From: Multifurca ochricompacta | Lineage: Eukaryota; Basidiomycota; Agaricomycetes; Russulales; Russulaceae | Direction of reading: 5' to 3' | DNA length: 16,915 nt | Assembly (NCBI GenBank): GCA_022496185.1 | Contig: WTXG01000504.1 | Coordinates: forward strand, 1 to 16,915 | Shown: positions 2,423 to 15,834 of the stretch, in pieces | Numbering within the stretch: position 1 is the stretch's first letter | How the letters are laid out: every line of letters starts with the position of its first letter | Made by a program: the position numbers and the translations under genes | Notes under the pieces: model-generated | The model's input: the letters and a program-made list of their open reading frames with translations, nothing else | Database searches by the model: none | What the model was told of the DNA's origin: nothing

Positions 2423-2546
2423 AGGCAGGACTTTCTTAAGTTCTGAAGCATAGCGCCGCAGAATGGACGGGCCCTCTTCAATGAGACCTGGACAACTGGT
2501 TCTAATTGCTCCTTGGAACCAGGATCAACCTTTTAAATCATCTCAA

Positions 2547-5500
2547 ATGTCTTCCATCGTCTTCCCTCCCACATTCAAGTTCGATAAACTTGATGGCTCC
2601 AACTGGCAGCAGTGGTCGGTGTCTTTCACTGCCCTGCTGAGGATTAATGGAATGAAGAGGCATATTACACATGATGCCCCTGAATTCCTGAATCCACCCA
2701 AGCCAGAGGATGGAGAAAAGGACGACGAGTACGCCAAGTGCTTCGCACAATGGTCGGAGCCCATGTACGTAGAGTGGAATAGAGTGGAGGAAGTCCTCAT
2801 GGGAGTTCTGGTGATGGTAACGTCACCAGAAACATACTCCCAAATTGCCTCCGACAGAACTTTTCCCTCTGTCAATGCCAAATATGAGCGTTTGGAATCA
2901 CTCTATGGCTCAGTAGGAAGCATGGCCACCTACAACTTGTGGTGTTCTGTGTCCTCCTTCCGCTTGGAGGAGGGCAAGCAATTCAGACCCCAGTTGCAGT
3001 GTGTGTTGGATGTGAGGAGTACTCTCAAGGAAAATGGGATGGAGATCTCTGATCTCCAGTTGAGCTTTATTTTGCTCCAATCCCTACCTCCATCCTACAA
3101 TGCCATTGCTGGCTCAATCCTGGCGTCAGGTCCTCCTGACTGCCTTTCCCCTCAGGACCTTGTACAAAGGTTCCTAAATGAGGAAAGCCGACTTGCCGGC
3201 CCCACAGGAAGTGGTGTTGGGGCTGCCCTTAACAAGGCAGCCCATGTCAACAAAAATAAAAATAAAAAACAAGTAACTTTCACGCCACCTCCTGCAGGTG
3301 CATCATCGTCCAATGATGTCACCTGCTTCTATTGCCAGAAGCCGGGCCACAAGGCAAATGAATGTCGGCAAAGGAAACAGGACAGAGCCAATGCTGATGC
3401 AGGCAAAAAGGGCAACAAGAGGAAGGGGCAAGGCCCCAGTGTACATAATAACTCCACACAAGTAGCTACCGTAATTAATGGTAGTGGCAGAATACAGGAG
3501 GTGCATGAGACACCTCGCATTTCACTTTATATGATGACCACCAAACACACGCAAGAAGTCGATGATGGCAGCAATCCTTGGATGATGGACAGCAGAGCCA
3601 CCACTCACTTTACACCATACTTAGAAGATTTCTCTGAGTATTTCCCACACAAGGGACATCAGGTGACAATAGGTGATGGATCCATAGTCCAAGTCGAAGG
3701 AACAGGCAAAGTCATACTCAAAACTCGCAATAATTATGAGTTAGAGTTAAATAATGTCTTTTATATGCCTGGCAGTGAAAGAATACTGTCGACAAGCTGC
3801 ATCACCGACAAAGGCGGTTCAGTGGAGTTCTCTCCATCTGAAGTCAAAATAAAGTACAATAATGCAATTATAGCGGAAGGTGTCAAGGCTATGGGACTCT
3901 ACTGGGTCTTTGGGAAAACTATGCAGAATTTAAATACTGCTTCCCACAAATCTGCATCAACTAGCCTTGAAACCTGGCATTTGCGCATGGGTCATATGTC
4001 AAAAGAGGCCCTCAAAAGATATGCTCCTAAGGCTGTAAAAGGCCTTAGCATTGATAATAGCCAAGTGGAAGACAAGCTGTGTTATGGCTGTGAAATGGGA
4101 AAATCACACTGTCTTCCATTCCCTCCCTCTCAAAAGAGAGCTTCAGCACCCTTGGAAGTCATTCATAGTGACCTAGTTGGTCCTCTACAATGTACTTCAA
4201 TTCAAGGGAACCTATACTTCGCCACCTTCATAGACGACTTTAGCAGGACAGCTCTAGTTGTTGCCATGAAGAATAAAAGTGATTTCACATCGGTCTTCAG
4301 TAACATTAAGGCATTCTTGGAAAATAAAACAGACAAGAAAATAAAGACCTTACATACTGACCGAGGTGGCGAATATGTAAATAGGGAGCTGAAGTCAATA
4401 CTTGAGAAGGCTGGCATAGAGCATAAATTGACAATGCCATATTCCCCACAACAAAACAGAAGGGCTGAAAGGTTCAACAGAACCATTATGGAAAAGGCTA
4501 CCAGTATGCTGCATCATGCTGGTCTTTCCCTTGGTTTCTGGGAATGTGCAGTGCGAACAGCCTGTCACATATACAATAGAACACCAATCCGCTCTAATAA
4601 GTGGAGGACACCGCTTGAGCTTCTGGATGGGGACATTCCAGATGTCTCTTACTTTAAAATATTTGGCTGCTTAGCCTACTACACTGTCCCAGAGGACAAA
4701 AGACGTAAACTGGATCATAAAGCCAGGGAAACAGTCTTTGTCGGGTATGCACCCCATTCGAAAGGATACCTCCTATGGGACATGCATACTCAATCCTTCG
4801 TATTGTCAAGAGATGTGACATTTGATGAAGGGTCCTTCCCATCCAACCTTGCCAAGGACAGCAAGGGAAAGCAAAAGGAAAAAGTTACGCCTTTTGTCTT
4901 AGAAAAAGAGAGGCCTGTCCAACCTCAACCAGCAATAGCCACAGTTCCTCAGGCTCCTGAAGACAAGGACGCCCAGGTTGAGGAACAGGAGGTAGTGGAA
5001 CCTCCTCAAATAAATCCTGAGCCTACCACACCCGACAATGAGCTTGACACACATGATCAAACCATCTACCAGACACCTCCATCCCAAATTATGGAACCAT
5101 CAGAGCTTCCTGAAAGAACCTGTGCAAAGAGACAGTCTAAGAAAAAGACTGGTGGCAAAATTCCCCAACCAGTATTCACTAGGGAAAGTCCATGCTCTCA
5201 ACAATGTGACAGGGCCGTGCAGGAAGATCTAGATCTTGATACTGCCCGTCCTAAATGTTCACGCCGCATGAACCCTCGATTCTACAATGAGGATAATGCT
5301 GAGTTCGTGCAAGGTTCTTCCAGACTTGGGAATATGGAATTGCTTAATGCCGCAGGTGTCTCTTATAGGGACCCCCTGACTTTTCAGGAGGCAATGCAGT
5401 CTGATAATGCAGATGAATGGCTTGAAGCATGCAAATATGAAATTGATGCTTTAGATAAGCTAAATGTGTGGTGCCTTGAAGATCTTCCAAAAGGAAGGAA

Positions 5501-6569
5501 GGCAGTTAAGTCCAAATGGGTCTTTAAGCTGAAACCAGATGGACGGTTTCGTGCTAGGCTTGTGGCAAAAGGTTTCACCCAAGTAGAAGGGGTGGACTTC
5601 GACGAAACATTCTCACCAGTCGCCAGATTTGAATCACTTAGATTATTACTAGCGCTAGCTACGCTAGAGGATTGGGAAATCCACCAGATGGATGTCAAAT
5701 CGGCATTCCTACATGGCGATCTGGATGAAGAAATTTATATGGAGCAACCAGTTGGTTTCGTTGTTGCTGGTCAAGAGTCCAAAGTTTGTAGGCTACAAAA
5801 AGCTTTATATGGCCTCAAACAAGCTTCCCGAGCATGGAATTTACAGTTTCATGCAGTTCTTAATGAACTGGGCTTTACTCGGACGTACTCTGATGCAGGA
5901 GTATATGTGTTTCATCAAAAGGAGGGGGATGATTCACTTTATGTCATTCTCTATGTAGATGACATTACTATACTTGGATCTTCCAATGATAGAATAACAT
6001 GGCTGAAGTCGTCTCTATCTAGTCGATATGAGATGACTGACTTGGGAGAAATCCAGTCATACCTTGGAGTTAACATCACCAGGGATCGTCCTAATAAGAC
6101 GCTGGAAATTGATCAAGCAGCCTATGTTTTATCTATTATTGAGAAGTTTGGGATGAGGGATTCCAACCGAGTATATACTCCTCTTCCCTCTGGCGCTGAT
6201 GTACATCTGGTCAAGTTTGAAGGCCAGGCATCTACTTCTGAGATAAAGAAGTACCAACAGCTGATGGGATCTCTGCTATGGGTGCAGATTGGAAGCAGAC
6301 CCGATATCAGTTTTGCTGTGGCGCGCCTTAGTCAGTACGCTTCCAACCCCTCTCAAGATCACATGCGACTTGCAAAGTATGTCTTGAAGTATCTTAACAG
6401 TACAAAAGACTGCAAGTTGCGGTATTCTGGAGGGAATGGGGAGAGTGGCCTTCATGGCTTTGCAGATTCCTCATGGGGAGATCAGAGGACTGCCGCTCTA
6501 CCTCAGGCTACGTGTTTTTCTTGGCAAATGGTGCCATTTCATGGTGTTCCAGAAAACAGAAAACAGTAG
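2547..6569 (+). CDS. Copia A Gag-Pol polyprotein (Gag, protease, integrase, reverse transcriptase)
   Basis: I chose ATG 2547 (MSSIVFPPTFKFDKLDG) over the in-frame ATG 2463, because the matching upstream frame in element B is closed by a TAA five codons in. Residues below count from 2463. Gag comes first, with a CCHC knuckle CFYCQKPGHKANEC (288-301, nt 3324-3365). The protease site is WMMDSRA (Asp376), where the family has DSG. The integrase has H506-x4-H511 and C540-x2-C543, then Asp570, Asp633 and Glu669 with DD35E spacing, but QNRRAERF where QNG is usual. The linker is Pro/Glu-rich, then comes RT with YVDD at 1164-1167 (nt 5952-5963). RNase H begins at GFADSSW (Asp1335), but the frame is lost after 6482 and ends in unrelated residues. 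The enzymes would act in cytoplasmic particles and the nucleus. It is probably inactive. Confidence 0.93.
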   Translation: MSSIVFPPTFKFDKLDGSNWQQWSVSFTALLRINGMKRHITHDAPEFLNPPKPEDGEKDDEYAKCFAQWSEPMYVEWNRVEEVLMGVLVMVTSPETYSQIASDRTFPSVNAKYERLESLYGSVGSMATYNLWCSVSSFRLEEGKQFRPQLQCVLDVRSTLKENGMEISDLQLSFILLQSLPPSYNAIAGSILASGPPDCLSPQDLVQRFLNEESRLAGPTGSGVGAALNKAAHVNKNKNKKQVTFTPPPAGASSSNDVTCFYCQKPGHKANECRQRKQDRANADAGKKGNKRKGQGPSVHNNSTQVATVINGSGRIQEVHETPRISLYMMTTKHTQEVDDGSNPWMMDSRATTHFTPYLEDFSEYFPHKGHQVTIGDGSIVQVEGTGKVILKTRNNYELELNNVFYMPGSERILSTSCITDKGGSVEFSPSEVKIKYNNAIIAEGVKAMGLYWVFGKTMQNLNTASHKSASTSLETWHLRMGHMSKEALKRYAPKAVKGLSIDNSQVEDKLCYGCEMGKSHCLPFPPSQKRASAPLEVIHSDLVGPLQCTSIQGNLYFATFIDDFSRTALVVAMKNKSDFTSVFSNIKAFLENKTDKKIKTLHTDRGGEYVNRELKSILEKAGIEHKLTMPYSPQQNRRAERFNRTIMEKATSMLHHAGLSLGFWECAVRTACHIYNRTPIRSNKWRTPLELLDGDIPDVSYFKIFGCLAYYTVPEDKRRKLDHKARETVFVGYAPHSKGYLLWDMHTQSFVLSRDVTFDEGSFPSNLAKDSKGKQKEKVTPFVLEKERPVQPQPAIATVPQAPEDKDAQVEEQEVVEPPQINPEPTTPDNELDTHDQTIYQTPPSQIMEPSELPERTCAKRQSKKKTGGKIPQPVFTRESPCSQQCDRAVQEDLDLDTARPKCSRRMNPRFYNEDNAEFVQGSSRLGNMELLNAAGVSYRDPLTFQEAMQSDNADEWLEACKYEIDALDKLNVWCLEDLPKGRKAVKSKWVFKLKPDGRFRARLVAKGFTQVEGVDFDETFSPVARFESLRLLLALATLEDWEIHQMDVKSAFLHGDLDEEIYMEQPVGFVVAGQESKVCRLQKALYGLKQASRAWNLQFHAVLNELGFTRTYSDAGVYVFHQKEGDDSLYVILYVDDITILGSSNDRITWLKSSLSSRYEMTDLGEIQSYLGVNITRDRPNKTLEIDQAAYVLSIIEKFGMRDSNRVYTPLPSGADVHLVKFEGQASTSEIKKYQQLMGSLLWVQIGSRPDISFAVARLSQYASNPSQDHMRLAKYVLKYLNSTKDCKLRYSGGNGESGLHGFADSSWGDQRTAALPQATCFSWQMVPFHGVPENRKQ

Positions 6570-6913
6570 CGCAGTCCACCACTGAAGCCGAATATATGAG
6601 CCTCTCTGAGGCTGCAAATCAGGCAGCGTGGTATAGGACTTTTATGGAGGAACTAGGGTATGAGGTATCCTCCCCTATACTACTCCACTGTGACAATAAG
6701 GGTGCCGTAGATTTGGCATTAAACCCAGTCACAGGAAGGCGGTCAAAGCATATTCCCATCAAGTACCATGCCATTAGGGGGTACATTGAATCGCACATAA
6801 TTGAGTTAGTGCGAACCCCCACAGGTGAGATGCTGGCAGATGGCTTCACTAAGTCTCTACCAAGAGCATCATTTGAAACCATGGTAAATGGACTTGGACT
6901 TATGCTGGAATGA
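6473..6913 (+). pseudogene. Copia A RNase H domain, frameshifted from pol
   Basis: This frame continues pol after a one-base deletion near 6480-6486. True RNase H sequence resumes at about 6482 (SEDCRSTSGYVFFLANG), then AISWCSRKQKTVAQ, STTEAEYMSLSEA with the catalytic Glu, HCDNKGAV with a catalytic Asp, and RRSKHIPIKYHAIRGYI near the end. The first catalytic Asp (GFADSSW) is left in the upstream frame. RNase H removes the RNA strand during reverse transcription. The ATG at 6473 lies inside the domain and is not a real start. I see no slippery heptamer, so I read this as mutation rather than programmed frameshifting. Only a polypurine tract and LTR1 follow, as expected for the end of a Copia pol. 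Confidence 0.9.
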
Positions 6914-7174
6914 GAAGAGCTGGAATCTGGAGACTTGGAATACCAGTCTCACTTTCCCACCATGTCATATGAGCACATTCTCGACCTCGAGAGTGATGCA
7001 AGAGGTGTGAGTTTGCATAAGAGAATCTACAACTCATATGCAAAGCTCACAACCCGCACTTGAGAGTTAGAGAAGTTGGATCTCTGGCTGGCGATATGCT
7101 CATTCAATTGTGATGGCAGTGTGCTCATCCAACTCATTTCCCATCCATGACCAGATGCCTTCAGCATGGAGGGA
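6914..7174 (+). other. Copia A 3' UTR with a long inverted repeat
   Basis: This 261-bp stretch between pol and LTR1 has no gene. It contains CATATGAG (6966-6973) and ATTCTC (6977-6982) facing GAGAAT (7021-7026) and CTCATATG (7033-7040), which can fold into one two-part stem. In the loop is the palindrome TCTCGACCTCGAGA. Its function is unknown. Confidence 0.55.
7168..7174 (+). promoter_or_regulatory. Polypurine tract of Copia A
   Basis: GGAGGGA ends immediately before the TGTTGA start of LTR1. It is short but correctly placed to prime plus-strand DNA. Confidence 0.7.
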
Positions 7175-7439
7175 TGTTGAACACAGAAGATGTTCGGTGA
7201 TGCTTCAGGCATCAGGTGATCAGATTAGCTGCTTTGTAGATTAGATTAGATACCGGAGTTTCGGACTATTTACATTATCATTATTACTTTCTTTCTCACA
7301 CTCCGCAGTAGCTGACTGATACACTATGTAACATGTGATTTCTGTAGTGGCCAATGGCCTTTCTCCCTCATGTTTATTGTTTGGACTTTGTCCGGCACTT
7401 GTGGACTTATTCCCAGTGCACAGACCACCCCTTGATTAG

Positions 7440-7446
7440 TATATAA
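7440..7446 (+). promoter_or_regulatory. TATA box of LTR1, predicted start at A7474
   Basis: TATATAA lies 34 nt upstream of A7474. That A is also where the repeated second copy at 7586 begins, an independent reason to place the transcription start there. Confidence 0.7.
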
Positions 7447-7473
7447 GGGTGTCTGTTTCATCCTCTACACTTC

Positions 7474-7624
7474 AGAGTTTTCTTCATCTCTGAAGTGTAA
7501 GTCCCTTCTACATTACTTCCTACTTATACCTTTGACTAACCGCTCTCTGTAGCTAACTTGTCTTTTAGGTCAGTAGTATAGTAATAGAGTTTTCTTCATC
7601 TCTGAAGTCTAACTTGTCTTTTAG
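7474..7624 (+). other. LTR1 split exon pair, two predicted introns and spliced copy
   Basis: Exon 1 is 7474-7496. Intron 1 is 7497-7552 (donor GTAAGT, branch CTAAC at 7536-7540, acceptor CTGTAG). Exon 2 is 7553-7568 (CTAACTTGTCTTTTAG). The linker at 7569-7585 starts with a second possible donor, GTCAGT. The copy at 7586-7624 equals exon 1 joined to exon 2 in all 39 bases. It ends in pyrimidines plus TAG, so splicing 7568 to 7625 (intron 2, 56 bp) would remove linker and copy. The match is seen directly; splicing is inferred from the signals. Confidence 0.85.
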
Positions 7625-7676
7625 TTAACAACTAACAACTCACAGTCAGTATGCTGCGCATCATGCCTGTTTCACA

Positions 7677-7895
7677 TAGTAGATACACAGTAGCTAGAAG
7701 GCTTCATCTCTGGGCAGAAGTACTTGCTGCCATTGTTGGGGGTTTGCCCCAACCAGAGGAAACCTGATAGTCTACTATAGTCATGGCCCCAATCATCTAG
7801 GGCTTAATCATGGACTCCACCACCAGCACTAGAGGAAGGGCTATATACCCTTTGTCTCTAGTGGAACTTGTGGTTGGCTCCTCCATGACATGACT
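7677..7895 (+). promoter_or_regulatory. Structured 5' leader of Copia B
   Basis: This part of the leader cannot be compared with element A, where the Gypsy element interrupts it. It has no gene but several perfect or near-perfect inverted repeats: GGCAG-AAGTACTT-GCTGCC (7713-7731); GTTGGGG (7735-7741) with CCCCAAC (7747-7753) around a 5-nt loop; and CACTAGAG plus AAGGG (7827-7840) with CCCTT plus CTCTAGTG (7848-7863) around CTATATA. Such folding fits a packaging or dimerisation leader (inference). No primer binding site is recognisable at 7677. Confidence 0.5.
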
Positions 7896-7920
7896 CCCCA
7901 TCTATTTACACAATGTCCCC

Positions 7921-7992
7921 CTGATGTGGGCTTAGGACTTGTTGTAGATGGCGCTAGACAGCTTACTATACTACTTAGAAGTCACACATCAG
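7921..7992 (+). promoter_or_regulatory. Stem-loop in the Copia B leader, matching the one in A
   Basis: CTGATGTG (7921-7928) and CACATCAG (7985-7992) form the same stem as 2351-2422 in element A. The arms are unchanged although nearby bases differ between the copies. Confidence 0.5.
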
Positions 7993-8117
7993 AGGCAGGA
8001 CTTTTTTAAGTTCTGAAGCATAGTGCCACAGAATGGATGGGCCCTCTTAAATGAGACCTGGACAACTGGTTCTAATTGCTCCTTGGAACCAGGATCAACC
8101 TTTTTTAAACATCTCAA

Positions 8118-8645
8118 ATGTCTTCCATCATCTTCCCTCCCACCTTCAAGTTTGACAAACTTGATGGTTTGAACTGGCAGCAATGGTCAGTGTCCTTCAC
8201 CACCTTGCTTCAGATAAATGGGATGAAGAGGCATATCACACATGATGCCCCTGAATTCCTAAATCCACCAAAGCCAGAGGATGGAGAAAAGGACAATGAA
8301 TATGCCAAACACTTCGCAAGTTGGTTGGAGCCCATGTACCTAGAATGGAACAGAGTGGAGGAAGTCCTCATGGGAGTTCTGGTGATGGTAACATCACTGG
8401 AAACATACTCCCAAATTGCATCTGACAGAACTTATCCTTCTGTCAATGCCAAGTATGAGTGATTGGAATTGCTCTACAGCTCAGTAGGTAGCATGGCCAC
8501 CTACAACTTGTGGTGTTCTGTGTCTTCCTTCCACTTGGAGGAAGGCAAGCATTTCAGACCCCAGTTGCAGTGTGTGTTGGATGTGAGGAGTACCCTCAAG
8601 GAAAATGGGATGGAGATCTTGTTGAACACAGAAGATGTTCAGTGA
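8118..8645 (+). pseudogene. Copia B gag fragment, with stop and 3' deletion
   Basis: The frame starts at ATG 8118 (MSSIIFPPTFKFDKLDG) and follows element A's Gag closely through HDAPEFLNPPKPEDGEKDNE. A TGA at 8460-8462 stands where element A has CGT (Arg). In the same frame it continues (LYSSVGSMATYNLWCSVSSF, LKENGMEI) to about 8619, then runs into LTR2 and ends at 8643-8645. The zinc knuckle, protease, integrase, RT and RNase H are absent. Full-length Gag cannot be made from this copy. The in-frame TAA 15 bases after the ATG at 8034 shows that translation in this family does not need that upstream ATG. Confidence 0.88.
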
Positions 8646-8884
8646 TGCTTCAGGCATCAGGTAATCAGATTAGCTACTTTGTAGATTAGATTAGATACCA
8701 GAGTTTCAGACTTTTACATTATCATTATTACTTTCTTTCTCACATTCCGCAGTAGCTGACTGATGGACCATGTAACATGTGATTTCTGTAAATGGCCAAT
8801 GGCCTTTCTCCCTCATGTTTATTGTTTGGACTTTGTCCAGCACTTGTGGACTTATTCCCAGTGCGCACAGACCATCCCTTGGAG

Positions 8885-8891
8885 TATATAA
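8885..8891 (+). promoter_or_regulatory. TATA box of LTR2, predicted start at A8919
   Basis: TATATAA is 34 nt upstream of A8919, the first base repeated at 9030. The spacing is identical to LTR1. Confidence 0.7.
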
Positions 8892-8918
8892 GGGTGTCTG
8901 TTTTGTCTCTTCCACTTC

Positions 8919-9068
8919 AGAGTTCTTCTAACCTCTGAAGTGTAAGTGCCTTCTATACTATCTACTTAACTATTAGACTAACGTTCTTTACATAGAACTT
9001 TCTTTGTCTAGGTCAGTAGTATAGTTAATAGAGTTCTTCTAACCTCTGAAGTAACTTTCTTTGTCTAG
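8919..9068 (+). other. LTR2 split exon pair, two predicted introns and spliced copy
   Basis: Exon 1 is 8919-8941. Intron 1 is 8942-8995 (54 bp, GTAAGT, branch CTAAC at 8978-8982, acceptor CATAG). Exon 2 is 8996-9011 (AACTTTCTTTGTCTAG). The linker at 9012-9029 begins GTCAGT. The copy at 9030-9068 equals exon 1 joined to exon 2 in all 39 bases. Exon sequences differ from LTR1 at several positions, but each LTR is consistent within itself. Intron 2 would be 9012-9068, 57 bp. Confidence 0.85.
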
Positions 9069-9268
9069 CCTAACCTGCTAACCTTTGTTGAGACAGACCC
9101 AAAGCCACTGGATCAACCTGAGTGGCATTACTGCCATGCACACTTGTGGCGTGCTTTGACTGATTGATAAAGGACAATCCACAAAACGCTCTTTATTCTC
9201 TCTTGTGACTGTAGGACAATGGACTTAGATAGTATTGTTCTACAAACTAGGATTACACTCTCTTTTAG

Positions 9269-9275
9269 TATTTAA
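9269..9275 (+). promoter_or_regulatory. TATA-like box of LTR3, predicted start near A9304
   Basis: TATTTAA lies 35 nt before A9304, where the repeated unit begins (two upstream bases, TC, also match). The spacing agrees with the other LTRs. Confidence 0.6.
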
Positions 9276-9301
9276 GGACATCCCTTCGTGTAGTTGTCAC
9301 T

Positions 9302-9457
9302 TCAGTTTTAACCAACTAAACTGAAGTGAGTATTACTTATCTTATCTCTTACCTTACTTAGTTAACATGTTACATCACACAGTTATCGCTACTAAACTAG
9401 GTAAACATAATATTATCAGTTTTAACCAACTAAACTGAATTATCGCTACTAAACTAG
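9302..9457 (+). other. LTR3 split exon pair, two predicted introns and spliced copy
   Basis: Exon 1 is 9302-9325. Intron 1 is 9326-9382 (57 bp, donor GTGAGT, possible branch TTAAC at 9362-9366, acceptor CACACAG). Exon 2 is 9383-9400 (TTATCGCTACTAAACTAG). The linker starts with GTAAAC at 9401. The copy at 9416-9457 equals the spliced exons in all 42 bases. Intron 2 (9401-9457) would again be 57 bp. Confidence 0.85.
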
Positions 9458-9535
9458 GTAGCGCTTATCTAACTCGCTGCTGCTCAAATCAACAACCTTC
9501 ACAGTCAGTATGCTGCACCTCATGCCTGTTTGACA

Positions 9536-9550
9536 GGTTATGGGCCCTGG
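9536..9550 (+). promoter_or_regulatory. Primer binding site, half-tRNA initiator Met type
   Basis: GGTTATGGGCCCTG directly follows the end of LTR2. It is complementary to the anticodon stem-loop of eukaryotic initiator tRNA-Met (CAGGGC-x-CATAACC in yeast). Drosophila copia and yeast Ty5 are primed by such a tRNA half, so this marks a Copia minus-strand start site. Confidence 0.75.
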
Positions 9551-9769
9551 GCATGCTTAACTGACAATTCCTTTTGATCAGTCCAACTTTTCTTCAAGCT
9601 CACTGCTTCAAGACTTCTTCTTCCCAATCACCATCACAGTGAGCTTCGATTTCTTTTTCCCTTTGCCCTTAACTGTCCACAAGGTGGTGCACTTTATGTG
9701 CCCACTGTAACAGGTGATGCTCTGTGTACACTTAGTAATCAAGAAGGGCAAAGGTGTGGTGACCTAAGT
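9551..9769. other. Leader-like remnant between LTR2 and LTR4, with a perfect inverted repeat
   Basis: The 219 bp after the primer site resemble no other part of the window and hold no convincing plus-strand gene. CCTTTGCCCTT (9660-9670) is perfectly inverted at 9744-9754. The minus strand holds a short open frame, listed separately. The stretch may be the leader of the element primed at 9536, cut off by the LTR4 element. Confidence 0.4.
9608..9763 (-). other. Short open frame, Cys- and Lys-rich, function unknown
   Basis: On the minus strand a frame opens after an in-frame TAG (itself a possible acceptor, CAACTTAG) and runs 51 codons to TGA at 9608-9610. It contains KCTQSITCYSGHIKC and then VKGKGKKKSK and VIGKKKS. 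It has no ATG at its beginning, so it could only be a 3' exon or the remnant of an ORF read from LTR4. I do not recognise it. It may be chance, since the region is short and pyrimidine-rich on the other strand. Confidence 0.2.
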
Positions 9770-9879
9770 TGTTGGGCATACCGTGGAGGCAAACATCACG
9801 CGTCAAGCAATGACCAGGAACTGTGTCACCCACTGTGGTTTATTCAACCACGATGACAGTGTTCTGAAACTGGAGGAAG

Positions 9880-10000
9880 CTGCAGCCCCAAGAGGACAAG
9901 ATCCAAAGGATCAAGTCACACAGGGAGGCAGTATACCATTAGCACTATGTATCGAACTCATGTAGACAGTTACTCACCTGCAGCCCCAAGAGGACAAGAT
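9880..10000 (-). other. LTR4 exon, predicted intron and second exon copy
   Basis: Exon 1 is 10000-9978 (minus), ending CTGCAG before the donor GTGAGT (9977-9972). An identical 23-nt copy lies at 9902-9880 and is followed by CTTCCTCC. The match starts exactly at the predicted start base and stops exactly at the donor. The second copy ends CTGCAG, an acceptor, so splicing 9978 to 9879 (98-nt intron, possible branch CTAAT inside) would leave one exon copy joined to U5. An AATAAA on the minus strand (about 9844-9839) could be the poly(A) signal. Confidence 0.8.
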
Positions 10001-10027
10001 GGGGGCTACAGGCTGTTACAGAGGGTC

Positions 10028-10034
10028 TTATATA
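10028..10034 (-). promoter_or_regulatory. TATA box of LTR4, predicted start at 10000
   Basis: TATATAA on the minus strand lies 34 nt before the A at 10000, where the repeated exon begins. It is the same geometry as in LTR1-LTR3. Confidence 0.65.
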
Positions 10035-10160
10035 CATTTCTCAGTGTAACGAGGTAAGCAGTAAGTGTAAGCAAGAATCAGCAAGTATCAGTCAGCTGTA
10101 TTGCTGACTGAGCCTTATCTTTGTGATTCATAAGCTGCTTTACTCTGCTGACTGATCATG

Positions 10161-10197
10161 CTCCACAGTGTGATGTCATAATGACGTCACTGTGGAG
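10161..10197. promoter_or_regulatory. U3 palindrome with a CRE-like core in LTR4
   Basis: CTCCACAGTG (10161-10170) is perfectly inverted at 10188-10197. Between them is TGACGTCA (10182-10189), the classical ATF/CREB-type site bound by bZIP factors. It lies upstream of the LTR4 TATA box and could be an enhancer (inference). Confidence 0.5.
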
Positions 10198-10305
10198 TAG
10201 ATAACTGATATGTAGTCTAGCCCTTAGGTCTGGAACACGTCTATCTACTGATACATATGATTCTGTGCTAAAATTGGCCATGGCCCAACCTGGGCCCTTA
10301 TCTAG

Positions 10306-10387
10306 AGCTCCACTTACCTAGAACCTTCTAGGCTGGACTCCTCTTATCTTGATAACAGCTCCACTTGGTCTAGAACTGTCTAGACTG
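10306..10387. repeat. Imperfect direct repeat in the U3 of LTR4
   Basis: AGCTCCACTT followed by CTAGAAC and TCTAG motifs occurs at 10306-10335 and again at 10357-10387. Tandem U3 units of this kind are often enhancers. Next to it, at about 10409-10431, CTATTGTGTT is inverted around a single base. Confidence 0.5.
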
Positions 10388-10606
10388 TGGGGCCTTGCCT
10401 ATTGTGTTAAACACAATAGAGAATCGACTTGTTATTGTTGAGTGGCTCTTGTGCTGACTAAGCAGCATGTGACTATTACATGTGACTCGGTCACATGATC
10501 CATGTCACGACTACATTCCCATGATCACGTGTTGAGACTGCTGGGTAATCTTCCCACAGTCATGTGATCGGAAAAGGGAGAAAATAAAGGAAAAATAAAA
10601 TAGAGC

Positions 10607-11483
10607 TGTGACAGTAGGCATTCCTTATGGTGTGGGCATTTATTTGTCGGTAGTCTTGGATGGGTCGAAGTTTACCATCTTTCTTCTTGATAAAGAAGAA
10701 TGGTGATGCATATGGTGATTTTGACGGACGAATATACCCTTTTGCGAGGTGCTCTTCGAGGAATGACATGAGGGCAGTCTGTTCTGCCTGTGACAATGGG
10801 TAGATTTTGCAGTCGATTGCTGATGGAGTATCAGGTGCAAATTCAATAGCATGATCCCATGGTCGCAGGGGTGGGAAACGTTGTGATTCTTCTTCTGAAA
10901 ACACCTTCCAGTGATGGTGATAGGCTTTGGGTACTACCTCTGCAAAGGTCCTTTCGGCATGCCCTTCCACTGCCTTTTGGGCTAGTTCTGACGCTTTGGT
11001 GACATAACAGTAACCTGGGTCCTCCTCTTCTTCTTCTTCCTTTACCCAACATATAGTCACATGTCGGACTGCATAGTCGTATCCTAAAGAAGTGATGAGG
11101 ACAGGGTAGAATTCCTTGTCCATAGTTGCATTGCTCCAGTTAATTGTTGGTTCAAATGCAGCCAACCATGGGTACCTGAGAATCAAGTCTTCTTCTCCCA
11201 GATTAGTGACCAGGAAGCAGATGACTTTGGTTTTTTCTCCTACTTGGACCTTGAGATCGGTATAATGTGTAATCTTTCCCGCCCGATTGGCAGTCCTGTC
11301 AATGTTCCATTTATTCTTTTCCTGAGGGAGTGCCAGCATCCCTAATCCCATGGTCCTTGCCATTTGTGGGCTGATAAAGTTATCAGTGGCTCCTGAATCT
11401 ATCAGGATGTCACGATTGGCCGTCTTCTGTGTAGTTTCGAAATGTACTGGTATTTTCAAAGACTTGAAGCGACTAGTATACAC
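10607..11483 (-). pseudogene. Gypsy protease and N-terminal reverse transcriptase
   Basis: On the minus strand, RFKSLKIPVHF leads into the retropepsin site LIDSGATDNFIS (intact DSG). EEDLILRYPWL and FEPTINW follow, as in Gypsy proteases. An acidic linker with EEEEEED is followed by the start of RT: LSQAEQTALMSFLEEHLAKG, GYIRPSKSPYASP, FFIKKKDGKLRPIQDYRQIN, then RNAY and a break. Palm motifs, RNase H and integrase are missing. No ATG is present at the beginning (the frame opens after a TGA and reads LHVTSVYTSRF), so this is an internal piece of a polyprotein. It is not in frame with the gag piece upstream. Confidence 0.88.
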
Positions 11484-11955: not shown

Positions 11956-12294
11956 AGATACTACTGTACTACTATCTATCTCACCTTGTTAATTCAGAGA
12001 CTTAGCTGCTTGCAATAATGTGATAACGACTGCTTCATCTATAGCAGTTTTTAGTGACTTTATATACATTTTTAGATGTACTATTATCAGCTACTAATCT
12101 AAAGTAAAACAAATGTGTTATCTCGCTCGTTAATGAATGTGATCAAATCACATGATCGATCTGAGATATTTATACTCAGTTATCTAATTAATGTGAAACG
12201 CATTTTGATCTCATTAATTAATGTTATCTAAACACGATCACAATAATGTTGGACCACTATCCCGGTATCACTGTACCGGTACTCTGGTTCAACA
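11955..12294 (-). repeat. LTR5, truncated 3' LTR of Copia C
   Basis: On the minus strand the LTR starts TGTTGAACCAG at 12294, directly after a polypurine tract. It contains a TATA box (12066-12060) and near 12031 a predicted start. A possible exon runs to AACAAG before the donor-like GTGAGA (11984-11979). Homology ends at about 11955, where Gypsy gag begins, so the part where a spliced second copy would be is missing. Confidence 0.75.
12247..12294 (-). repeat. 48-bp terminal hairpin at the start of LTR5
   Basis: On the minus strand TGTTGAACCA at the LTR tip faces TGGTCCAACA 28 bp further in, an inverted repeat with one mismatch. Between them is the perfect palindrome GTACCGGTAC. The tip is where integrase binds, but the role of this hairpin is unknown. 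Confidence 0.5.
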
Positions 12295-12306
12295 CTCCCC
12301 CTTGCT
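12295..12306 (-). promoter_or_regulatory. Polypurine tract of Copia C
   Basis: On the minus strand AGCAAGGGGGAG ends immediately before the TGTTGA start of LTR5. Length, purine content and position all fit a plus-strand primer. Confidence 0.8.
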
Positions 12307-12342
12307 AAGTGTCGCTGCTTAAGCGTGCTAAGCAATGTGTTT

Positions 12343-13781
12343 TTACTTAGGCAAGGTAATCTCTAGCCCAAGTTGACTCCTGAACTTCAGGAATTTGACG
12401 CGTCCCAAATTTTTGGTGAACATGTCTGCGGGATTCTCAGCTCCTTCTATAAAAAATAGCTCTACTTTCTTTTCTTGTACAATCTGTCTGACATAATGGA
12501 AGCGGATATCAATATGCTTTATCCGCTGCTCTTGTACAGGGTTAGAGGCCATAAAAATGGAGCCTTGGTTATCACCGCAGAGGGGAATGGGTCCTAGATC
12601 AATGCCAATTTCACTAAGAAGCGATTTGATCCATACAACTTGTCACATTGTGTCAGAAAGCGACATGTATTCTGCTTCAGTGGACGAAAGTGCTATGGTC
12701 TTTTGTGCTCTAGAATTCCAGCTGAATATCCCATTCGCTATTTTCACCATATATCCAGTAGTAGATCGGCGATCAATTGGGTTTGACACCCAATCAGAAT
12801 CAGCACACGCGATCAATCTGCCATTTGATCTACCATCGTAGATAAGTGTGTAATCCAATGTCCCGGCTAAATATTGACAGATATACAGTGCTCGATCAAG
12901 ATGATCTTGAGATGGATTAGTGGCAAATTGAGATAGCCTTGTCACTGCAAAGGCAATATCTGGTCGCGTGCCCAACATAATGTAAAGTAATGAGCTGATT
13001 ACTTGTTGGAACTTTGAATGAATGGAAGGATCAGCAGGTTCAGTGTTAGGCTCTGGATGATAGCCTTCTGGGAGAGGAGTGGGTGCAAATTTTGCATTAA
13101 GTATCCCGAAGCATTGCAGCACTTTAGTAAGGTATGGCTGTTGATCGAGTAGAACTTTGCCATTTTTCCTAGTGATGCGCATTCACAAGAACTCCTTTGT
13201 ATCTCCTAGATCCCTGCATTCCCATTTGTTCATGAAGTCAGTTTTTAATTTACTGACTAGGACTTTGTCATTTCCCATAAAAAGGGCATCATCAACATAT
13301 ACAATGATGACAACAATCAACCCATCATTAGTCTTATATAGAAATAGACCTGAGTCTGAGAGTAGGCATTTACAGCCCATCGCAGCCATGGATTTATCCA
13401 GCGCCTTCCACCATGCTAAGGCAGCTTGTTTAAGACCATAAATGGCGCGTTGTAGTTGTAGTACTTTGGTTTCTTGTCCTTTAATCTTGAAACCTTCAGG
13501 TTGTTCCATATATAGCTCTTCTTCTAGTTCACCATACAGGAATGCACTTTTGACATCTAATCCAGTGATGTGCCAATCCTCAAGTGCTGCAAGCACGAGC
13601 ATCAACTGGACAGTCTCAAACCTTACAACAGGCGAGAATATTTCATTGAAGTCAATACCTTCAACCTGAGAAAAGCCTTTAGCAACAAGCCTGGCTTTCT
13701 TACGACCATCAGATTTTTGGTCAAAGACCCATCTGTTTTTAATTGTCTTCCTCCCTTTGGGAGGGTCCACAAGTGTAAAGA
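12343..13781 (-). pseudogene. Copia C reverse transcriptase and RNase H
   Basis: Resuming after the solo LTR, the frame reads LVDPPKGRKTIKNRWVF, ARLVAKGFSQVEGIDF, ETFSPV-like EIFSPVVRFE, DVKSAFLYGELEEELYMEQP, YGLKQAALAWW and the catalytic IVYVDDALFMG. It then runs through GTRPDIAFAVTRLSQFA to RNase H, with ADSDW, STEAEYMSLSD and CGDNQGS carrying the acidic residues, and ends HIDIRFHYVRQ...LEITLPK at TAA 12343-12345. Two in-frame TGA codons break it: 13183-13185 (between KEFL and MRITR) and 12643-12645 (between SDTM and QVVW). All catalytic residues I can place are intact, so point stops and the LTR insertion, not active-site loss, inactivate it. Confidence 0.92.
13777..13781. repeat. Target site duplication AAAGA, left copy
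   Basis: AAAGA at 13777-13781 repeats at 14374-14378 on the other side of the Gypsy solo LTR. It is a perfect 5-bp duplication, as expected for Gypsy integration. Confidence 0.9.
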
Positions 13782-14373
13782 TGTTACGTCCGGTGTGAGA
13801 TGTCCTGCATGACTTGTGCGACAGCCTTGTTCGTGTGTTCAGATAAGAGGTCAATAGGACCTCTTGGAGTTTCAGTGGTAGAGTCAAAGTCAAAGGGGCT
13901 GTTCCCTAGTGATGATGTTAAGTGGAAAGTGCCGAAAGCACTGAGATGATCGAGTCAAAGGGTCCAAGGGAGAGTCCGAAAGACAAACACCGATGTATTC
14001 AATAAGTCGAGTCTGAGGTCTACAATGTAGTTACAGCGAGCTTATATACGTAATCGAGTGGGCGTCTATAGATAAGATAGCGGAGTCAGGTGGGCCCAAA
14101 TATACGGAAGCGGACGGCGTAGAGTCGGGCTTCTGATAGGGTATTAAGTAAGTGTCCGAACATAAAGATAAAGAGATAACAAGATAAGAGATAAGAGGTC
14201 AAACATAAGTACACAACGAGTCAACAAGTCCAAAGCGAGTCACGGGGAAGGAAGCAAGGCACGTGATGGGTCCCAGGACGGGGATGTGATCATGAAGTGT
14301 AAGGTAGGTGGCAGGGATGGGTCATCGTTGGGGAGGTGGAAGAAAATGGGGTTGCTCGGTAGAGATTGTAACA
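13782..14373 (-). mobile_element. Gypsy solo LTR, 592 bp, inserted in Copia C pol
   Basis: On the minus strand it starts TGTTACAATC at 14373 and ends CGTAACA at 13782. It aligns along its length with the Gypsy LTR at 1736-2325, including CCCTATCAGAAGCC, TTTGGGCCCA and the TATA box (14048-14042). It is flanked by AAAGA on both sides. No internal Gypsy sequence remains, so it is a solo LTR left by LTR-LTR recombination. It inserted after element C was already present and belongs to the same family as the Gypsy element at the left of the window. Confidence 0.95.
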
Positions 14374-14940: not shown

Positions 14941-15834
14941 TCATGTGGAAGGTGGAGGGCGAGATGGTAGGAAATCATCATCGTCCACTAAAGGGATGGG
15001 CTGTGGGTCTGGCTCTTCATTAAGTAGAGGCTCATTTAATTTTGTAACTCCACGGTGTTTGTTGGAATCACACTTAGGAAAGAGATTCTCATCAAATAAG
15101 GCTGTAGCTTGCGTGTATAAAGTATTATTTCCAAGTCTTATGAACAGATGGCCTTTAATGCCATCTGCTTGCCCTATGTACACCATAAGTTCGGACTTAG
15201 GTGCTAATTTATTACTGTGGCGTTCTTCTGGAATGTAGACATAAGCACCACATCCAAAGACACGTAGATGAGAAATCTCCGGTGCTTCTCTATACAGTTT
15301 CTCATAAGGTGTCAGCCATTTCAGGCAATGTACAGGAGTCCTGTTATAGAGATGTACTGCATGTAGAACAGCAAATTCCCACCAGGAGTCTGGAAGACAT
15401 GACTCAATGCACATTGCTTGCGCTTTGTCCATACAAGTACACATGAAACGCTCTGCGTGGCCATTTTGTTGGGGAGTATAAGGCACGCTTTGTAGGATGT
15501 TTATCCCTTCATCTTTTAGTACATTCATAAACACATCAGACTTGTATTCGCCACCAGCATCAGACATCCATTGTTTAATGTTAGTGTTATGTTGATTTTT
15601 GATCATAGCAAGGAATTGTTGCAAAGCGTTTATTGCAGCAGACTTAGTGCGCAAACATACAATCCAAGCAAATGACATATAATCATCAATAAAGCTGATA
15701 AAATATTTGTATTTATGATAAGATTCAATCAGGAAAATCTTCAAATCTGAATGGATGTGCTCAAATGGCTTTGAGGCACGTTTTACAGACGTAGATAAGA
15801 TTGCGAAGGCATCTTGCCTTGCGCATCCCGGCAT
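14941..15834 (-). pseudogene. Copia C integrase core
   Basis: The frame reads KRASKPFEHIHSDLK with the first Asp, SFIDDYMSFAWIVCLRTKS, then MSDAGGEYKS with the second Asp, and SVPYTPQQNGHAERFM with the catalytic Glu, an intact DDE set in an rve-type fold. HLYNRTPVHCLKWLTPYEKL and LRVFGCGAYVYIPEERHSNKL follow, typical of the Copia integrase C-terminus. It ends at TGA 14941-14943, a probable point stop because the same frame continues in the linker. The ATG at 15834 is internal: the zinc-binding N-terminus lies upstream in another frame. Confidence 0.9.

Follow-up and report, generated by a model that had tools for sequence, protein, structure and literature searches.

The window analysed here, i.e., a stretch of 16,915 nucleotides (nt) representing positions 1 to 16,915 of contig WTXG01000504.1 of the fungus Multifurca ochricompacta (assembly GCA_022496185.1; host genome of 53.8 Mb, 605 contigs), is a nest of retrotransposons, and four of their long terminal repeats (LTRs) are the subject of this work. 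Short predicted introns containing CTRAY motifs, together with the density of LTR elements, would fit a fungal and probably mushroom-forming host. LTR1 and LTR2 (family A) and LTR3 (family B) are of the Copia type and lie on the forward strand, whereas LTR4 (family C) is of the Gypsy type and lies on the reverse strand (Table 1). A base-by-base check revealed that in all four a short block (copy 1) begins 33-35 nt past the start of the TATA box and is followed by copy 2, which equals copy 1 minus a GT...AG segment (LTR1-LTR3) or copy 1 up to the donor (LTR4). The exact matches claimed for LTR1 to LTR4 in an earlier note on this DNA (39/39, 39/39, 42/42 and 23/23, respectively) were all confirmed, and the splice junctions named there were correct. 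The same note regarded LTR3 and LTR4 as unlike LTR1 and LTR2 in this block; this is true of LTR4, the letters of which differ from those of LTR1-LTR3, but not of LTR3, which has the stem CACTTCAG...CTGAAGTG in common with LTR1 and LTR2.

The first skipped segments start with GTAAGT or GTGAGT and end with AG, and the second one, starting with GTCAGT (LTR1 and LTR2) or GTAAAC (LTR3), closes at the last AG of copy 2. Families A and B carry two predicted introns, of which intron 1 (49-57 nt) is placed within copy 1 and intron 2 comprises the spacer and the whole of copy 2; family C carries a single predicted intron (96-99 nt) with copy 2 at its end. All of these predicted introns are contained wholly within the LTR, with a donor-to-AG distance of about 49-99 nt, and a transcript freed of them near its 5' end would begin with the sequence of copy 2, directly continued by the unique 5' region (U5). 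The canonical arrangement of a unique 3' region (U3), a single intron-free repeat region (R) and U5 was not found in these LTRs.

Table 1. Split-repeat LTRs of the window and their predicted features (start sites, introns, hairpins and landing site are predictions)
Feature	Positions	Strand	Remarks
LTR1	7175..7676	+	family A (Copia); closes the element on its left as 3' LTR; TG...CA ends
Polypurine tract of the LTR1 element	7166-7174		
LTR1 hairpin	7467..7498	+	arms 7467-7477 (its 5' end precedes the predicted start site) and 7488-7498 (covers donor-1 GT)
LTR1 copy 1 exon 1	7474..7496	+	predicted transcription start 7474, 34 nt from TATA start
LTR1 intron 1	7497..7552	+	GTAAGT...AG, 56 nt, CTRAY motif
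LTR1 copy 1 exon 2	7553..7568	+	
LTR1 intron 2	7569..7624	+	GTCAGT...TAG; spacer and copy 2
LTR1 copy 2	7586..7624	+	exon 1 + exon 2, 39/39 with 7474-7496 + 7553-7568; predicted landing site of spliced strong-stop cDNA
LTR2, first part	8620..9085	+	family A (Copia); 5' LTR; remaining end 9500-9535, then primer-binding site 9536-9547
LTR2 hairpin	8913..8942	+	arms 8913-8922 and 8933-8942 (covers donor-1 G)
LTR2 copy 1 exon 1	8919..8941	+	
LTR2 intron 1	8942..8995	+	54 nt
LTR2 copy 1 exon 2	8996..9011	+	
LTR2 intron 2	9012..9068	+	contains copy 2
LTR2 copy 2	9030..9068	+	39/39 with 8919-8941 + 8996-9011
LTR3	9086..9494	+	family B (Copia); solo LTR inside LTR2; duplication ACCTT 9081-9085 / 9495-9499
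LTR3 hairpin	9298..9328	+	arms 9298-9308 and 9318-9328 (covers donor-1 GTG)
LTR3 copy 1 exon 1	9302..9325	+	predicted transcription start A9304
LTR3 intron 1	9326..9382	+	57 nt
LTR3 copy 1 exon 2	9383..9400	+	
LTR3 intron 2	9401..9457	+	GTAAAC...TAG; contains copy 2
LTR3 copy 2	9416..9457	+	42/42 with 9302-9325 + 9383-9400
LTR4	9824..10612	-	family C (Gypsy type); TGTCAC...GTGACA
LTR4 hairpin	9976..10013	-	arms 10013-10002 and 9987-9976; covers CAG/GT of the donor
LTR4 copy 1 (exon 1)	9978..10000	-	predicted transcription start 10000
LTR4 intron	9880..9977	-	GTGAGT...CAG, 98 nt; copy 2 at its end
LTR4 copy 2	9880..9902	-	23/23, 10000-9978 = 9902-9880

LTRs of these families were then sampled across the genome. 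For family A, two similarity searches supplied 60 loci and a pattern search another 40, used in the order listed; the parser required both arms of the hairpin listed in Table 1, the first donor and a TATA-like motif, and blocks without them were skipped uncounted. After removal of duplicates and of two blocks cut by the locus end, 106 LTRs remained (70 + 36), while four of the 40 pattern loci were left unparsed (two duplicates, one without a recognised TATA and one intronless). Copy 2 is the spliced form of copy 1, letter for letter, in 97/106 LTRs of family A (62/70 in the similarity set and 35/36 in the unselected set), 16/20 of family B and 20/20 of family C (for the latter two, 20 of 41 listed places each), as the earlier note had anticipated. 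A copy 2 that varies independently of copy 1 or includes intron bases was sought and not found among these LTRs, as the nine family-A misses are one base (seven LTRs) or two bases (two LTRs) off and the four of family B a single C/T or G/A step. Two further groups, B' (2 LTRs) and B'' (7 LTRs), possess their own exons, each faithfully copied.

The concerted match of copy 2 to the spliced copy 1 is far beyond chance: random re-pairing of the family-A copies 2 (2000 trials) gave a mean of 9.06 matches per 106 and a maximum of 19. Exact copies 2 were found in at least one LTR for 41 of the 48 distinct family-A copy-1 haplotypes, and the exact LTRs comprise 17 exon-1 and 34 exon-2 variants in these 41 haplotypes. 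In copy 2 of each subfamily its own exon 1 and exon 2 are joined at GT and AG. As exchange or slippage of intron-bearing DNA would not make such an exon junction, copy 2 most likely comes from spliced RNA, and splicing combined with reverse transcription, acting repeatedly, is its most likely source. Splice signals accompany this pattern in family A, where donor 2 is GT in 106/106 LTRs, acceptor 1 is AG in 105/106, and a CTRAY motif (counted without a chance control) lies no more than 40 nt from the end of intron 1 in 106/106; donor 1 formed part of the selection.

The layout was also recovered by approaches that did not rely on the hairpin. Among 71 family-A LTRs found by their TATA region, 68 (a few of them partial) contained the split repeat, and the three exceptions were two intronless LTRs and one with a one-base loss. 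A family-free scan for a TATA-like site followed by a repeat of at least 15 nt at 22-49 nt, covering 447 kb of overlapping sequence on both strands, returned 85 matches in 19 groups, 18 of which are the families described here; GT directly follows copy 1 in 85/85 matches, and 81 begin 33-34 nt from the TATA. The remaining group (L006, minus strand, 3021) belongs to a different repeat family, where a TATA-like site precedes a local repeat; no splice layout was recognised in it. Moreover, 20 flanks of polymerase matches, chosen from 150 listed so as to favour other families, yielded ten blocks (seven B'', one B' and two A) and one intronless LTR. Places with the arm, exon 1 and the donor number about 1,500 for family A (estimated), 56 for family B and 176 for family C, on many contigs, and reversed control patterns gave 0 matches in the genome. 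The family-A figure was derived from 2,135 raw pattern matches with the donor, since among the first 100 listed 28 were two-strand doubles (at least one was intronless).

Target duplications (GGCTG, TACCC, CCCTT and TTAAC) were recognised at four of six family-A LTR pairs and none was seen at the other two; 5-bp duplications thus occur in family A as well as in family B (LTR3). In two pairs with target duplications, L007/L011 and L058/L059, which show one and zero differences, respectively, in the first 460 nt, both LTRs carry the introns, and the predicted introns, as read from these pairs, survive transposition. Four disagreements between the copies in family A could be dated by the partner LTR, and three of them arose after insertion, while in one copy 1 had changed first. 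The changes in L037 and L046 post-date insertion, as their partner LTRs are exact. In the pair L048/L053 (C12, duplication CCCTT) copy 1 is changed and copy 2 unchanged in both LTRs, as a lag of one round would predict; L053 shows an additional, later loss. This pair is possibly a snapshot of one replication round.

It is probable, in our opinion, that these elements hold their R region twice and that copy 2 is the landing site for strong-stop cDNA made on spliced RNA, which would restore the introns and rewrite copy 2. In the cycle that we propose, transcription would start at the first base of copy 1, as the left edge of the repeat suggests, and the RNA would be spliced near its 5' end to exon 1-exon 2-U5 (families A and B) or exon 1-U5 (family C). 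The letters of such a 5' end are those of copy 2 and U5. The 3' end of the RNA, supplied by the 3' LTR, would keep U3, the intron-bearing copy 1, the spacer and copy 2. The spliced strong-stop cDNA would land on copy 2, the only unbroken exon 1-exon 2-U5 sequence in the 3' LTR, and synthesis through the spacer, copy 1 and U3 would produce new LTRs with introns and a freshly printed copy 2. Printing from spliced copy 1 would explain the observed concerted change. Good expression requires introns in several mushrooms, but not in all of them, according to one report (PMC4935854), and elements of this kind would profit from retaining one; the likely gain is a 5'-proximal intron that aids expression and that reverse transcription would otherwise delete.

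Splicing would have to be limited to the 5' end of the RNA, and a predicted hairpin may serve this purpose. Its 5' arm begins in U3 and its 3' arm lies over donor 1, so that an RNA initiated at the start site would lack all or part of the 5' arm, whereas an RNA running through the 3' LTR would contain it. The LTR4 hairpin comprises 12 pairs by visual count, including two G-U pairs. The cost of opening the donor was computed on RNA ending 15 nt past it, for 106, 20 and 20 LTRs of families A, B and C. Opening donor 1 required 11.0, 14.8 and 14.0 kcal/mol, respectively, when U3 was present, vs. 3.1, 2.8 and 3.6 kcal/mol in RNA from the start site and 3.9, 5.1 and 6.3 kcal/mol with a shuffled U3. 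For B' and B'' (9 LTRs) the values were 12.7-14.7 with U3 and 1.1-3.3 from the start site. At 355 random sites of the same loci the mean gain was 0.6 kcal/mol, and 4.2% of the sites gained at least 6. If intron 1 were removed in the 3' LTR, LTRs without intron 1 alone would be expected; an exact pattern reaching 98/106 rows found 0 of them for family A in the genome, for which the hairpin offers a reason. We consider it somewhat more likely than not that LTR elements evolved a way to keep spliceosomal introns, i.e., an intron-free R landing pad, rewritten each round, combined with a hairpin gated by the start site.

Several points weigh against this view. Start sites, splicing and RNA 3' ends are all inferred from the genomic sequence. 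The rows of families A and B were picked by patterns with both hairpin arms (those of family C were not), and the sole arm-independent check for family A is the presence of CACTTCAGA in 72/72 LTRs selected by their TATA. The highest gain at a random site (9.5 kcal/mol) is above the mean gain of family A (7.9). The local windows described above gave a clear signal, but when 170 nt of RNA from the start site were folded, access to the donor at equilibrium improved modestly or in a mixed manner, with GU unpaired at 0.37 vs. 0.19 in family A (right direction in 79/106 LTRs), 0.06 vs. 0.0003 in family B (20/20) and 0.43 vs. 0.28 in family C (17/20), and over 9 nt the family-C mean was reversed (0.35 vs. 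0.44). In view of this smaller and mixed equilibrium effect in longer RNA, the hairpin would have to act during transcription. Furthermore, loss of intron 1 alone was sought in family A only, with mismatches disallowed; L165, counted among the 97 exact LTRs, needs an acceptor shifted by one base; exon 1 is invariant across the 20 family-C LTRs, which therefore give no test of concerted change; and nine of the 20 Copia flanks were without any block.

Among the other explanations, the one that survives best, and that we consider possible although clearly the less likely one, assumes that unspliced RNA feeds the main cycle, that splicing is a side path by which copy 2 is occasionally rewritten, and that the hairpin dyad acts as a promoter or initiator element and is irrelevant to splicing. 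The start of an unspliced exon 1 can pair with copy 1, restoring the LTR, the predicted start site falls within the dyad, CACTTCAGA is present in 72/72 LTRs, and the gating effect is weaker in longer RNA. On the other hand, a lag of copy 2 that preceded insertion was seen in one LTR pair only, and a single lagging pair implies that rewriting must be frequent. In addition, the family-C stem, built of other letters and including two G-U pairs, suits RNA better than a DNA-binding dyad. As unspliced RNA would restore the LTR without rewriting copy 2, the proposal of the earlier note that copy 2 is rewritten from spliced RNA is supported by the concerted change, but its extension to each replication cycle is not.

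Two further explanations touch on LTRs without introns, of which at least 35 were found in family A (33/33 pattern matches, L032 and L166), 11 in family B, one in B'' (L183) and 8 in family C; the 36 of A and B'' were read as sequence and the 19 of B and C are known from match strings only. One of the 11 family-B matches contains one mismatch, and the family-C count represents 8/10 matches, one of them mismatched, the other two not being assignable. Intronless LTRs constitute about 2% (A), 16% (B) and 4% (C) of the paired-pattern places. They fit landing on copy 1. We considered them as proof of splicing and set this use aside, since identical sequences would result from a deletion that joins one exon-1 copy to the other, and hence they do not decide between the models. 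Of the 20 expected partner sites of intronless family-A LTRs, one held an intron-bearing LTR in the same orientation (C523), one a family-A LTR in the opposite orientation, and 18 were without a block (this reading would overlook partners that are mutated or displaced); with 19/20 lacking a same-orientation partner, many intronless family-A LTRs may be solo or broken. Both LTRs are intronless in C212 and C246 and, by coordinates only, in C359. Separately, the ACATCTGAAGT (ACAT) subfamily, with a weakened top stem pair, accounts for 7/33 intronless LTRs (two same-strand pairs included) vs. 4/106; this possible excess was seen after the fact and was not used.

In the first of these explanations, which seems unlikely, cDNA of spliced RNA recombining with genomic LTRs (cDNA-driven gene conversion), and not the first strand transfer, would keep copy 2 equal. 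Such conversion also needs splicing and reverse transcription and would yield the same copies, and elements with a single intronless LTR do exist, as judged by coordinates (the 5' LTR in family-B C13 and C593; the 3' LTR in C457 and C523). It would, however, have to act on nearly every LTR, and the young elements L007/L011 and L058/L059 have matching intron-bearing blocks in both LTRs, as if made in one round. Far less credible is the second, according to which processes at the DNA level alone (unequal exchange, replication slippage or gene conversion between the copies) keep the repeat alike. Short direct repeats do recombine, an exon-1/exon-1 deletion would leave intronless LTRs, and the scarcity of same-orientation partners noted above would agree with this; none of these processes, however, joins exon 1 to exon 2 without the intron in copy 2, and both exons track their partners over 41 haplotypes. 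Finally, for chance or an assembly artefact no supporting point was found, and the numbers of places in the three families, their spread over many contigs and the absence of reversed patterns make it next to impossible.

With regard to the elements themselves, the 502-nt LTR1 used as a query showed 92-98% identity to other places in the genome. The open reading frame to the left of LTR1 encodes rve (3561-4760) and RVT_2 (5301-6300; 274 bits) domains, i.e., in family A the integrase is upstream of the polymerase, and LTR1 closes a Copia element. The polyprotein of this element (2463-6913) is split over two overlapping frames near 6473-6569, and the copy therefore looks broken. The primer-binding site after LTR2 is GGTTATGGGCCC, which we take to be the complement of the anticodon arm of the initiator tRNA. 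LTR3 is nested within U5 of LTR2 (9081-9499); owing to this insertion LTR2 resumes at 9500-9535, and the primer-binding site starting at 9536 is that of LTR2. Five other family-B copies have the same CA terminus as LTR3.

RVT_2 matches sit between family-B LTR pairs on C7 and C605, and the B'' blocks lie about 0.9-1 kb downstream of RVT_2 matches; by this polymerase domain, families A and B can be assigned to Ty1/copia. In one family-C element, present in pieces on C206, a weak RVT_1 match (20.1 bits; cut-off 29.6) has Integrase_H2C2 (78 bits), SH3_Tf2-1 (57 bits) and rve (25.7, below the cut-off) on its downstream side. This domain order and the Gypsy-type domains, with RVT_1 and rve below their cut-offs, point to Ty3/gypsy for family C. 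As Copia and Gypsy lineages of the same genome both show the layout, it has either arisen two or more times or been transferred from one lineage to the other. Nevertheless, it is not universal in the genome, as a minus-strand Copia element has an LTR-like end (11990-12308) with a TATA, in which the split repeat was not found. This element, with RVT_2/rve pieces at 13183-13794 and 14941-15834, is interrupted by a Gypsy-like LTR (13783-14373, minus strand) that forms, with 1736-2330, two inverted copies (aligned pieces 80-89% alike) without the split repeat. A reverse transcriptase piece had no relatives among viral contigs; in prokaryote genomes matches were found on three contigs of metagenome-assembled genomes, and a protein search gave 7063 relatives, without DNA context.

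Reverse transcription is classically recognised by the loss of introns. The earlier note knew of no described LTR retrotransposon of this kind, which agrees with our search, in which no description of an LTR with introns and a spliced second R was found in the open-licence literature. The elements resemble ordinary Ty1/copia and Ty3/gypsy retrotransposons in their RVT_2 or RVT_1-type polymerase and integrase, TG...CA LTRs, 5-bp duplications (A and B), presumed R-mediated first strand transfer and, in family A, a presumably initiator-tRNA-like primer-binding site; ordinary elements, however, have one intron-free R, whereas the present LTRs have two copies of R, one of them interrupted by predicted introns. 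Foamy viruses and the human T-lymphotropic and bovine leukaemia viruses (HTLV/BLV) also have a splice donor in R, just past the start site, but their acceptors are far downstream and serve to make subgenomic RNA; in the fungal elements donor and acceptor share one LTR, and splicing would affect the genomic RNA as such. In the leader of human immunodeficiency virus 1 (HIV-1) the start site decides which RNA fold forms. Here, too, the choice of start site would alter the fold or fate of the 5' leader, although the alternatives would be the two LTRs, 5' and 3', and the role of the switch would be to protect an intron.

According to the accessible part of a 2025 review (PMC12786077), plant LTR elements are generally without introns, except for Ogre and EVADE, the introns of which are functional and make subgenomic RNAs by alternative splicing. 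Ogre and EVADE are thus LTR retrotransposons with introns, as the Multifurca elements are predicted to be, but that part describes no in-LTR intron with a spliced copy for them, whereas all predicted introns found here are in the LTR. A putative Ty1 RNA lariat, i.e., a branch in the genomic RNA during strand transfer (PMC1266399), likewise ties splicing-type chemistry to the first template switch, although the proposal, in its accessible part, includes neither an intron nor a second R.

If the proposed cycle is true, these elements would be a counter-example to intron loss with a readable mechanism, in which introns survive by means of the LTR's own spliced print, and the site of transcription start would cause one RNA sequence to undergo splicing at one end but not at the other. 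The LTRs would then be a natural record of splicing and strand transfer, kept in genomic DNA and readable without RNA data. The cycle would also account for the persistence of retroelements in hosts, presumably including this fungus, in which genes depend on introns for good expression.

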